Assembly: GCA_017619755.1 (NCBI GenBank)
Contig: JAFZRU010000007.1
Location: 117,641 to 181,640 of the forward strand
Origin: Prevotella sp.
GTDB taxonomy: Bacteria; Bacteroidota; Bacteroidia; Bacteroidales; Bacteroidaceae
Length of the DNA: 64,000 nucleotides
Reading direction: 5' to 3'
Below the pieces are notes generated by a model. It saw only the letters and a program-made list of their open reading frames with translations. It was not told the DNA's origin and searched no databases. The position numbers and the translations under genes are program-made. Positions 57,511 through 63,890 of this stretch are shown here, piece after piece (within the stretch, counting starts at the first letter, position 1; the number at the start of each line of letters is the position of its first letter).

Positions 57511-59478
57511 TCAGTTGATGGTGATGGTGACGTCCTGTGTGATGTTGAGGCCTTGCCATTGGTCATCGACAGCGATGAGTTGTCCTTTGACGCTGTCGCC
57601 GCGCTTGTAGCCCATCAACGGGAAGTATTCGCTGTTGATCCGCCATTGCAGCGTAAACGGGTTCTGACTCATGATACGCTCCTGGTTGGCCTTACTGAAG
57701 AGCACCCATTCCCCGTTGATGTTCACCTCCGCACCCGGGATATTGAAGACCACGCCATGGTAATAGCCCCGCTGCAAAGCCGCAGTCTTTCCCTCAGTGA
57801 TGGAGGTGGGCACCGTAGGCATGAGGTATTTCTGGAAGAAGCCGGCAGGATTGATAAGATGGAGGTTCTGCGTCTTTCCGTCAAGATGGATTTTGTTGGT
57901 CAGCGTGGTGGCGCGGATCATCTTCATCAGTTGATCCACGTCGGCCACTTCCGCAAACATCTGGAAGCACAGGTCAGTCATCGCCAAATTGGTGTAGTTG
58001 GTATGGGAGGTAGTGTAGTTGCCATCTGGAGCATAGATGTCTCCGCCTAACGTGTGATAGGGGAAGCAGCGTCCTGAGAACAGCACGTCGGGATGGAATC
58101 CCATGGGGTATCTGGAGCCACCGTTGGCGACATCCGCATCTCCGTTCTCATTGGTGCCCACGGTGAGCATGATATGTTTGTTGATGGTGGCGTCATTTTT
58201 TCCGTTGGCAGATGATTGGGGAATACCATACATAGATTTGTCATCTGGCAAACTGATGTCTTCTTGGCAGATTATATTCCATCCCGATCTAACATTCGAT
58301 CCTGCTACGAACCAAAGGAAGTCCTTTCGCTTGATAAAATTCCGACCATTATAATAATCGGTATTCTCTTTGTCATAATCTTCTTTATTAGGTGTTTCCA
58401 TGGCCTTTGACAAGGCAAAAATAAAAATCGCATTTGTGGGGCTTTTTTCCAATAGTTCTGGCATGGCATAAAAGCGATCCTCAAGCACTACCATATTGGC
58501 ATGCTGGATGATGGAACAGAGGATGTCCCAAGAATCGTGGCCATGATCATTCTCATTATGAAAATCCTTGCCAACGAGTTCGAAATTGTCAAACCCCTCT
58601 GGTTTCTCACCCATCATTCCCGTGTAAAGCCTGAGCATCAGTTTCTGGTATTCACCGAAAGAATGGGAGCCCGCACCATATTGCCACATCATATCCCGGA
58701 CGCGGGTGCACTCGGCTATCCGGAGGTGCTCGATATGTTCGTAGGCTTTCTTGTCGCCTTTATTGATTTGCCCCACGATGGGAAGGATATCCTTGGGTTG
58801 CAGGTGCCGGATGTCAGCCGTCTGGAAGTCCATCGGTTTGATGGTGACCTCATATTTTTGCTCCAGTTTAACGCCATTCCTGCCCTGTACGGTGAAGATA
58901 AGGCTGCAATCACCTGGTTGCTTGGGGGTGAAATGTGTGGGGTCGGCGATTTCGTGACGCACACTGTCCATCTCCAACTCTGTCTTCAGCAGTGTCACGC
59001 CATCGACGAAGGTGATGCCGTCCAGCAGGTTGACCTCCTCCCCAGCCTGCAGGTTCAGTGAAGAGAAATGCGCGGTGGCCGCCATGACATAGAGTGTGAT
59101 CTGCCTTATCGTCGCATTGTCGTAATCGTTGGTGACGGTGATTATGAGTACGCCCGCCATGTCGAGGATGTCACCTGAACTCACGGCTTTGTCGTTGCAG
59201 GTCACCGCCACCTTGCAGTCCTTACCCGACTCGTCCGACCACGTTGCCACCTGTTCGCTGTTGAGGAGCAACTGACTCTTTTGGATGTCCACCTTCGCCC
59301 CTCCGAAGACATTCACGGGGTTCTGGAGGATGTTCAGAGTGGGATAGCCTTTTTTGACAGGTTCCGTGGGAATGATTGAGTTGTCATCAGAGTCGTCGCC
59401 AGAGCATCCCAGCATGATTACCAAGGCCATGCAGACAATTGTAAGCAATGACCAAATTCTTTTTACATCATTCATCAT
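57511..59478 (-). CDS. Large lipoprotein of unknown function, 655 aa, behind an invertible-type segment
   Basis: The start at 59478 (MMNDVKRIWSLLTIVCMALVIMLGCSGDD) gives a lipoprotein signal with the lipid cysteine at about residue 26, followed by an acidic sequence, as in surface-exposed Bacteroidetes lipoproteins. Two Ig-like stretches follow (about residues 50-230). The middle and C-terminal part has NENDHGHDSWDILCSIIQH, GGSRYPMGFHPDVLFSGRCF and TSHTNYTNLAMTDLCFQMF; spacing recalls subtilase motifs, but the catalytic serine is unclear, so this is only a thought. Upstream lies the 186-bp inverted-repeat segment (59601-59786) whose promoter now points away. No minus-strand promoter box was found between 59479 and 59600, so the gene is probably silent in this orientation. 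Confidence 0.7.
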   Translation of the reverse strand: MMNDVKRIWSLLTIVCMALVIMLGCSGDDSDDNSIIPTEPVKKGYPTLNILQNPVNVFGGAKVDIQKSQLLLNSEQVATWSDESGKDCKVAVTCNDKAVSSGDILDMAGVLIITVTNDYDNATIRQITLYVMAATAHFSSLNLQAGEEVNLLDGITFVDGVTLLKTELEMDSVRHEIADPTHFTPKQPGDCSLIFTVQGRNGVKLEQKYEVTIKPMDFQTADIRHLQPKDILPIVGQINKGDKKAYEHIEHLRIAECTRVRDMMWQYGAGSHSFGEYQKLMLRLYTGMMGEKPEGFDNFELVGKDFHNENDHGHDSWDILCSIIQHANMVVLEDRFYAMPELLEKSPTNAIFIFALSKAMETPNKEDYDKENTDYYNGRNFIKRKDFLWFVAGSNVRSGWNIICQEDISLPDDKSMYGIPQSSANGKNDATINKHIMLTVGTNENGDADVANGGSRYPMGFHPDVLFSGRCFPYHTLGGDIYAPDGNYTTSHTNYTNLAMTDLCFQMFAEVADVDQLMKMIRATTLTNKIHLDGKTQNLHLINPAGFFQKYLMPTVPTSITEGKTAALQRGYYHGVVFNIPGAEVNINGEWVLFSKANQERIMSQNPFTLQWRINSEYFPLMGYKRGDSVKGQLIAVDDQWQGLNITQDVTITIN

Positions 59479-59600
59479 AAACCTAAAATCCGCAATTATT
59501 TGATTTGACATTCTCTTCCTGTGTCCAAATCCTTGTAGCACCAAGATGAAAAGTCTATTGGGTGGTTGAATGATGGACCTTGGGAGAGTTCTTTTATATG

Positions 59601-59786
59601 TCTCTTTCGAAGAGATGTAGAAAAACACAAAAGCGTGATAGATGATGTTTTTCAAGCCTTCTTGATTGCTTTTTCCTAAACAAAAAGAAAAGACCTTATG
59701 AAAAATGCGTTTTTTTCTTACAATTATGCGAAATTTCGAAAAAATTTACTACCTTTGTAACCAGATGTCCATCTCTTCGAAAGAGA
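59601..59786. promoter_or_regulatory. Candidate invertible promoter segment
   Basis: The arm TCTCTTTCGAAGAGATG (59601-59617) and its exact reverse complement CATCTCTTCGAAAGAGA (59770-59786) bound a 152-bp A/T-rich spacer. Inside is TACCTTTG (59750-59757), a good -7 box, on the plus strand. Inversion would move it to about 59630-59637 on the minus strand, some 145 bases before the lipoprotein ATG at 59478. Size and build match the phase-variable promoters of Bacteroidales. No recombinase gene is in the window. Confidence 0.7.
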
Positions 59787-60010
59787 TTTGAAATTTGCTA
59801 AACAATCCCTAAGTGCGGTTGAAAACGGCCACGAGGTCTGCACCAAAATAGGGAATTATGTTTTATTGGTTTTCATAGAGTTTAGCTACAAGAGACAATG
59901 TAGGGGGATTAGGAAAAAAAGGGAAAGGGCGACCCCGTTAGGGTCGTAGCAACCATAGGTGGTTCATGTGTGGCGCGGCCTTATGGCGATTTCAAATTGG
60001 CGCATCGTGG
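59787..60010. other. Non-coding stretch with a small hairpin
   Basis: No gene is supported. CGACCC/GGGTCG (59930-59946) forms a small hairpin, followed by TAGCAACCATAGGTGGTTC, itself a partial inverted repeat (AACCATAGGTGGTT). In the present orientation the invertible promoter would transcribe into this region and the tandem repeat behind it. Confidence 0.4.
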
Positions 60011-60299
60011 CGGACATTCGCCCTGATGGGCGAGCGGATGGACATAAAGTCCACCCCTACAGTTGCAACAGGTTCTTGGAACGATGCTTTTATGAAGGGT
60101 ATCAGAGCGGTATCGGCGCGGACATTCGCCCTGTCGGGCGAGCGGATGGACATAAAGTCCACCCCTACAGTTGCAACAGGTTCTTGGAACGATGCTTTTA
60201 TGAAGGGTATCAGAGCGGTATCGGCGCGGACATTCGCCCTGTCGGGCGAACGGATGGACATAAAGTCCACCCCTACAGTTGCAACAGGTTCTTGGAACT
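60011..60299 (+). repeat. Tandem repeat, 108-bp unit, about 2.7 copies
   Basis: Units begin CGGACATTCGCCCTG at 60011, 60119 and 60227, exactly 108 bases apart. The units are almost identical (GATGGGCG in the first, GTCGGGCG in the others; one further G/A change). Each has two small hairpins, CGCCC/GGGCG and TGGAC/GTCCA. The third unit ends at about 60299. Since 108 is a multiple of three, all three reading frames stay open through it, but no coding features are seen. Confidence 0.92.
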
Positions 60300-60369
60300 G
60301 CACTTTGGAGCGGGAGATGAATAATGAAAAATAGTATGAAAGATGCTTGCAGGTGTGAATACTATTTCT

Positions 60370-63678: not shown

Positions 63679-63890
63679 ACGGCCTGAAAGGCCAAAAGCA
63701 ATCAGCCCAGGGCAACGCCCTGGGGAAGAGGGTGAGCCAAATATCGCCCTGCAGGGGCAAAAGCCTTATAGTTGTCATAATGCTTTTGCCCCGTCAGGGC
63801 GCAATCTACTTCTCCGTTATTACATACCCAGGGCGTTGCCCAGGGCTGGTATCTCGTTGGCCTTTCAGGCCGTCTTTGCACAAAATCCAT
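63679..63890. repeat. Dispersed palindrome-rich repeat, copy B, with an inverted partner
   Basis: 63774-63890 matches 56947-57060. Directly left of it, 63679-63771 is a diverged reverse complement of the same element (ACGGCCTGAAAGGCCAA, CAGCCCAGGGCAACGCC, GCCCTGCAGGGGCAAAAG). Together they form a 210-bp imperfect inverted repeat that could fold into a long stem. Confidence 0.85.

Follow-up and report, generated by a model that had tools for sequence, protein, structure and literature searches.

Is the 186-bp element at positions 59601-59786 of the window (the whole 64,000-nt stretch of Prevotella sp. DNA that was analysed) an invertible promoter and, if so, which gene does it switch and which recombinase turns it? 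The initial annotation had described perfect 17-bp inverted repeats around a 152-nt spacer, and these proved to be exact. The left arm (59601-59617, plus strand) reads TCTCTTTCGAAGAGATG and contains a 15-nt dyad core, TCTCTT-TCG-AAGAGA, at 59601-59615; the right arm (59770-59786, minus strand) is its exact reverse complement, with the core at 59772-59786. The predicted invertible spacer of 152 nt extends from 59618 to 59769, a layout common to two other copies in the same genome, of 187 and 188 bp. Each arm is a quasi-palindrome, as had been claimed, with a small correction to the proposed centre: the dyad is TCTCTT-NNN-AAGAGA, and TTCGAA forms its middle in the window copy only. Perfect 17-mer inverted repeats with a spacer of 60-600 nt occur twice in the window (this element and a pair at 63679/63857), whereas 40 dinucleotide shuffles gave 0.025 on average. 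This second pair (63679-63695 and 63857-63873) is spanned by an ORF that resembles one in locus L003 on another contig, C27, and is perhaps a dispersed repeat. Tandem repeats of about 110 bp were seen by eye at approximately 60000-60300, between the element and a HAD-type hydrolase gene, and like words occur in locus L010. The window contig (C18) stops 4.2 kb past the element.

On its left, the element is followed by the gene of a 655-aa predicted lipoprotein (57511-59478 including the stop codon, minus strand, 655 codons), whose LGC lipobox was read by eye. A -7 box, TANNTTTG, is present inside the element; as annotated at first, this Bacteroidota box, TACCTTTG, is found at 59750-59757 on the plus strand, directed away from the lipoprotein gene. 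The -33 region, judged by eye, is TTTCG as against the usual TTTG, an inexact match. The inverted repeats and the promoter-bearing segment fit the size of about 170-220 bp of tyrosine-recombinase-linked Bacteroidales invertible promoters. The 122-nt leader from the element to the start codon (59479-59600, minus strand) carries no TAnnTTTG on the gene strand, in agreement with the earlier remark that no other promoter box was found for this gene. Inversion in silico places one TAnnTTTG ahead of the ATG on the gene strand, at 59630-59637 (minus strand), and the proposal that the assembly represents the OFF state and that inversion gives ON fits the direction of the promoter before and after this operation.

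For the lipoprotein, Pfam, NCBIfam and PADLOC yielded nothing at the thresholds applied, and a sequence search against solved structures (alignment A5) found no match with E up to 1. A pattern for lipoprotein relatives matched 31 stretches of viral contigs, of which none was confirmed. A relative that is 67% identical occurs in a related species (G626), where a fixed TATCTTTG lies 43 bp before the matched start. Neither dyad nor box was found within the upstream stretch searched, and three neighbour genes of the window were not found in the 20-kb stretch around this relative; the G626 copy therefore informs on neither orientation.

A side observation concerns other relatives of the lipoprotein, which in 8 of 398 genomes of the genus contain 6 to 24 in-frame TGA codons. 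Over the loci noted (L173, L174, L175 and L177 in G731, G192, G150 and G649, respectively; also L157-L165, L179 and L184), the range is 6-29 per frame. In alignments to the window protein, TGA stands over glycine in 78 of 161 codons and GGA over glycine in 60 of 95, and CGA stands over tryptophan or phenylalanine in 11 of 23, over glutamate in 4 and over arginine in 3. A tRNA pair with anticodons UCA and UCG and long variable arms lies near the TGA-rich genes in all four genomes first examined, and the stretch of G626 that carries the normal-code relative contains no such pair. Six further loci from the tRNA search comprise one repeat of the first case, two with the pair (both among the 8 genomes), one with the UCA tRNA only and two in which none was called. 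The UCA tRNA has matches in 11 of 398 genomes, six of them among the eight TGA-rich ones (chance 2e-9); two of the eight are without it, and five genomes have it without such a gene. In Absconditabacteria, UGA is glycine and CGA/CGG is tryptophan (PMC8629427), and the acceptor ends of the tRNAs, by eye, fit the glycine identity rules and, base 20 aside, the tryptophan rules set out in that paper. To judge from codons and tRNAs, the lipoprotein relatives seem to read UGA as glycine beside tRNAs of their own, in an Absconditabacteria-like code, with neighbouring genes in normal frames. Contamination is made less likely by the fact that one TGA-rich genome is a single 2.7-Mb contig. These recoded relatives are possibly more interesting than the switch itself.

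The genome of the window (G000; 3.7 Mb in 67 contigs, 86% complete) was searched for other copies of the arm and for a near or distant recombinase, both suggested by the initial annotation, and both exist: elements of 187 and 188 bp plus a 271-bp variant, and one close member of a tyrosine recombinase family, on contig C36. A DNA search with the window element found the C36 copy at 73% over 210 query bases and the C27 copy at 69%, and the core pattern with set spacing gave exactly three elements of 186-188 bp (window, C27:64095-64282 and C36:31488-31674) and none in the backward control. The arms of the window and C36 copies differ at 3 of 17 positions. The fourth element, at C48:45980-46250, measures 271 bp and has perfect 18-bp arms. 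In the C18 (window), C27 and C36 elements the sole internal TAnnTTTG is directed away from the cargo-side gene, and these elements are OFF as assembled. The C48 element has a TAnnTTTG on each strand, of which the one near the arm, at the family position, faces away from the helicase gene and the second, in mid-element, faces it; this element is probably OFF too. The C36 recombinase (399 aa) has Pfam arm-binding, SAM-like and catalytic domains, and its element follows about 30 bp after the gene. It is the only close family member in G000; its next best match there, 31% identical, is encoded on C27 at a distance of 41 kb from that contig's element. PF13102 has three matches in G000, two of which are weaker relatives and none of which lies on C18. 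No family recombinase was found on the window contig, hence none adjoins the window element, and at this degree of completeness a recombinase may be missing from the assembly.

It is very probable that 59601-59786 is an invertible promoter of this family, OFF for the lipoprotein gene as assembled and probably flipped in trans by the C36 recombinase. The flipping of the window copy, and its flipping by this enzyme, would be carried over from relatives, as the window copy comes from one assembly in one orientation. The recombinase would pair the two arms, exchange strands in or beside the central 3 nt of each TCTCTT-NNN-AAGAGA dyad and turn the segment. In the assembled orientation the promoter would fire away from the gene (OFF); once the segment is inverted, a transcript starting from the -7 box at 59630-59637 (minus strand) would pass through the left arm and the 122-nt leader into the lipoprotein gene (ON). 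The C36 recombinase would act on the window element in trans, in the manner of Tsr19 and its distant Bacteroides fragilis promoter, and trans action is probable since the window contig has no family recombinase. This same absence is also what would be expected of a locked relic, that is, an element derived from a recombinase-linked module that has no adjoining recombinase, no longer flips and leaves its gene silent. Three of the four G000 copies are OFF and the fourth is probably so, and locked elements would look alike, which is a counterpoint to the preferred reading. Further counterpoints are the differences between the window and C36 arms, the inexact -33 match, a small serine recombinase and two weaker PF13102 relatives in an incomplete genome and, among the family recombinases described below, five with ample sequence but no element and the frequent Tyr in place of the His of HxxR. 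Perfect arms, both boxes kept, an intact 655-codon frame and a recombinase with intact catalytic residues in G000 argue against a relic, which is considered rather unlikely, if the best of the alternatives.

The invertible-promoter reading draws on the family as a whole. The strict arm pattern is present in 3 of 200 genomes of the genus, the own genome included. A recombinase alignment search of genome contigs returned 255 relatives, of which the best 80 were taken and all 80 analysed with a script that sought arms within 1300 bp of the recombinase. An element was found downstream in 67 of these best 80 of 255 relatives, three of them doubtful (L108 is a run of N, L122 is without the dyad and L061 has N in one arm). 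Of the 13 relatives without an element, 8 lie on contigs that stop within 310 bp of the recombinase, and the other 5 have ample sequence. Most elements (53 of 67) lie 20-60 bp after the recombinase gene, three nearer and 11 further, up to 996 bp. Judged by the -7 box, 49 of the 67 are OFF (towards the recombinase), 7 ON (towards the downstream genes), one both and 10 uncalled; the first downstream ORF runs in the same direction in 67 of 68 rows (the 68 include two duplicate loci). The catalytic R, K and R are present in all 81 recombinases and H and Y in 80 of 81, and the usual His of HxxR is Tyr in 71 of 81; four recombinase rows contain an internal stop in plain translation. A relative at E 1e-120 or better occurs in 111 of 399 genomes of a GTDB family sample, and further relatives are found in 27 plasmid records (E 1e-60) and 13 records of a phage collection (E 1e-40; the latter unannotated). 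In the OFF state (L002 298-1712; OFF loci among L045-L124) the promoter faces the 3' end of the recombinase gene, so that an antisense transcript could damp the recombinase.

The arms of these elements follow one scheme. In 66 of 71 elements both 15-nt cores score at least 13/15 against the TCTCTT-NNN-AAGAGA dyad. The centre triplet takes 22 forms among the elements and is the same in both arms in 65 of 66, for arms that were chosen to have at least 14 of 17 matching letters, favouring equal triplets; equal triplets are what strand exchange within the centre would demand. An asymmetric box, TTTGCTAAACAA, was derived from the same data and counted with up to 2 mismatches. Of the 59 elements called ON or OFF, 52 carry it inside (shuffle mean 3.1), 49 have it no more than 40 bp beyond the arm on the recombinase side (shuffle mean 0.85) and 1 has it beyond the other arm. 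Among 52 OFF elements, 45 have the internal box on the minus strand (4 show a plus-strand match as well or in its place), and among 7 ON elements, 6 have it on the plus strand. With one box fixed outside and one inside, their relative orientation reports ON or OFF. In the window, the inner box TTTCCTAAACAA (59672-59683, plus strand) would move with the spacer, and the outer box TTTGCTAAACAA (59794-59805, plus strand), fixed beyond the right arm, is a candidate arm-type or accessory site of the recombinase, whose arm-binding domain may hold this box.

Two further explanations lose ground at this point. Flipping by a serine recombinase of the Mpi kind has a possible agent in G000, a small serine recombinase encoded by a resolvase-family gene with a 219-aa frame on C16, but in its arm dyad and both boxes the window element agrees with those found next to tyrosine recombinases of the family, and this explanation is highly unlikely. 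The same dyad fits the initial suggestion that a recombinase other than the Mpi type may act. A MITE, a small non-autonomous transposon spread through the genome, would account for dispersed copies of near-equal length with inverted ends, but the outer box is on one side only and the relatives lie mostly at one place, after a recombinase. The MITE was rejected, and is less probable still, on inspection by eye of the flanks of three own copies, where no target-site duplication was found.

Inversion itself is documented in relatives: as the first reading of the locus had proposed for the window element, family copies of the same layout occur in both orientations between matching flanks. L092 (Bacteroidaceae bacterium IMSAGC_004) and L093 (Bacteroides nordii) have 99.9% identical flanks (1200 bp upstream and 3000 bp downstream of the element); with one element inverted, the two differ at 2 of 196 positions, as against 124 without inversion. 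The elements of L051 and L111, both from metagenome assemblies, differ at 1 of 188 positions inverted versus 119 uninverted, and the 300 bp downstream agree at 0.99 in a gapped alignment. The plasmid comparison covered 12 of the 27 records, with ten pMMCAT-type plasmids aligned over 868 bp and two records left out, an eleventh with a transposase insertion there and a twelfth that is another plasmid. Nine of the ten agree but for one base, and the tenth, of B. uniformis CL06T06C18, is identical but for that base once the stretch between the arms is inverted, an exact inversion in one of ten. Such direct inverted pairs within the family make it most improbable that the arms, themselves dyads as operators often are, represent paired repressor operators that never invert and resemble invertible elements superficially. 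The pMMCAT-type plasmids and a Phocaeicola massiliensis plasmid (L189-L198, L200) carry two tandem inverted-repeat elements after the recombinase; in the ten pMMCAT-type copies the second element is flipped once and the other is oriented alike throughout. In 9 of 80 cases the contig ends no more than 310 bp past the recombinase, a rate of 0.38 per kb as compared to 0.042 further on and 0.041 upstream. This excess may reflect populations of mixed orientation, which would give it, and other causes of assembly breaks could give it too.

The genes downstream of the family elements are often of the defence type. When the first three downstream genes of at least 150 aa were grouped and representatives rather than every member annotated, with no background rate, restriction-modification or other defence-type genes were found at 42 of 65 loci. 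Among these 42, 17 have an HKD-SNF2 helicase, 7 a Type II methyltransferase with a Type IIG-like partner, 8 belong to a helicase group whose lead gene is weakly methyltransferase-like, 4 are Type ISP or IIG-like, two have ResIII, and DndC, a C5 methyltransferase, BrxC and an Eco57I-type gene occur once each. Cargo of other kinds was seen as well, among it an LRR protein, a ketoacyl synthase and an aromatic lyase. In G000, the C36 element precedes an HKD-SNF2 helicase with Type III methyltransferase and restriction genes, the C48 element an HKD-SNF2 helicase with a Type IIG gene and the C27 element a lipoprotein-headed operon without PADLOC matches. One protein of the C27 operon shares 35% identity with a Bacteroides muris protein that is encoded in a recombinase-linked operon and has a tubulin match under the Pfam cut-off. 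This region downstream of the C27 element (L041 5045-8968) encodes a lipoprotein (VWA-like, by eye only), a small protein and a relative of the weakly tubulin-like protein, and a related operon lies beside the recombinase in L102 and, by clustering, also in L063 and L110.

A joint reading of these observations is offered tentatively. One recombinase and four unlinked promoters might form one phase-variable regulon, with boxes that sense orientation and with antisense damping. Its members might be the Type III and Type IIG operons with their HKD-SNF2 helicases, the lipoprotein-headed tubulin-like operon and the window lipoprotein. The fixed outer and the moving inner TTTGCTAAACAA might be arm-type sites that tell ON from OFF and bias the population to OFF, and where the recombinase adjoins, the OFF promoter might fire antisense towards the recombinase gene and damp it. 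The asymmetric box provides a testable idea for why most assembled copies are OFF. Family recombinases often precede restriction and modification genes, and phage defence and a surface protein could switch in the same cells. With the C36 enzyme, an orphan switch in a Prevotella-type genome is linked to a likely recombinase.

The idea that the whole family is new was rejected, as papers on related promoters (PMC8748976, PMC4747536) and on inverton groups (PMC11892184) show that the kind is known. Among the literature matches listed, none dealt with this recombinase family before Prevotella restriction-modification operons, which does not prove novelty. According to the DNA inversions section of a review (PMC12632263), restriction-modification systems of gut Bacteroidales are affected by inversions, and invertible methyltransferase promoters have been named as a possibility (PMC10333322). 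Inverton groups from a gut community include tyrosine invertases beside Bacteroidota invertons with the same promoter motif, and the invertase is described there as not regulatable by the inverton (PMC11892184); the likeness to the window family lies in invertase type and promoter motif. The Mpi capsule promoters of B. fragilis (named in PMC4747536) are similar in that one recombinase serves many promoters in trans, whereas Mpi is a serine recombinase. The IP-ARG classes of invertible promoters on Bacteroidales mobile elements have the invertase gene immediately upstream and an internal -7 TANNTTTGY; in one class two invertible regions lie side by side, and pMMCAT stands in the same invertase tree (PMC8748976). 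The upstream invertase, the internal -7 box and the two adjacent regions, as in the pMMCAT-type plasmids here, are shared, and the recombinase of these plasmids is 52.7% identical to the C36 recombinase; in contrast, IP-ARG cargo consists of resistance or glycan genes, and the window copy is without an adjoining recombinase. In Bacteroides fragilis, the tyrosine recombinase Tsr19 (BF2766) inverts a promoter just downstream and one distant promoter (PMC4747536). Because Tsr19 has a distant target, the missing adjacent recombinase lowers but does not bar membership of the window element in the family. Set beside the C36 recombinase by description only, Tsr19 is likewise a tyrosine recombinase with a local and a distant promoter, but its local cargo is exopolysaccharide, whereas G000 has a local element and three others, and restriction-modification operons follow two of these four.
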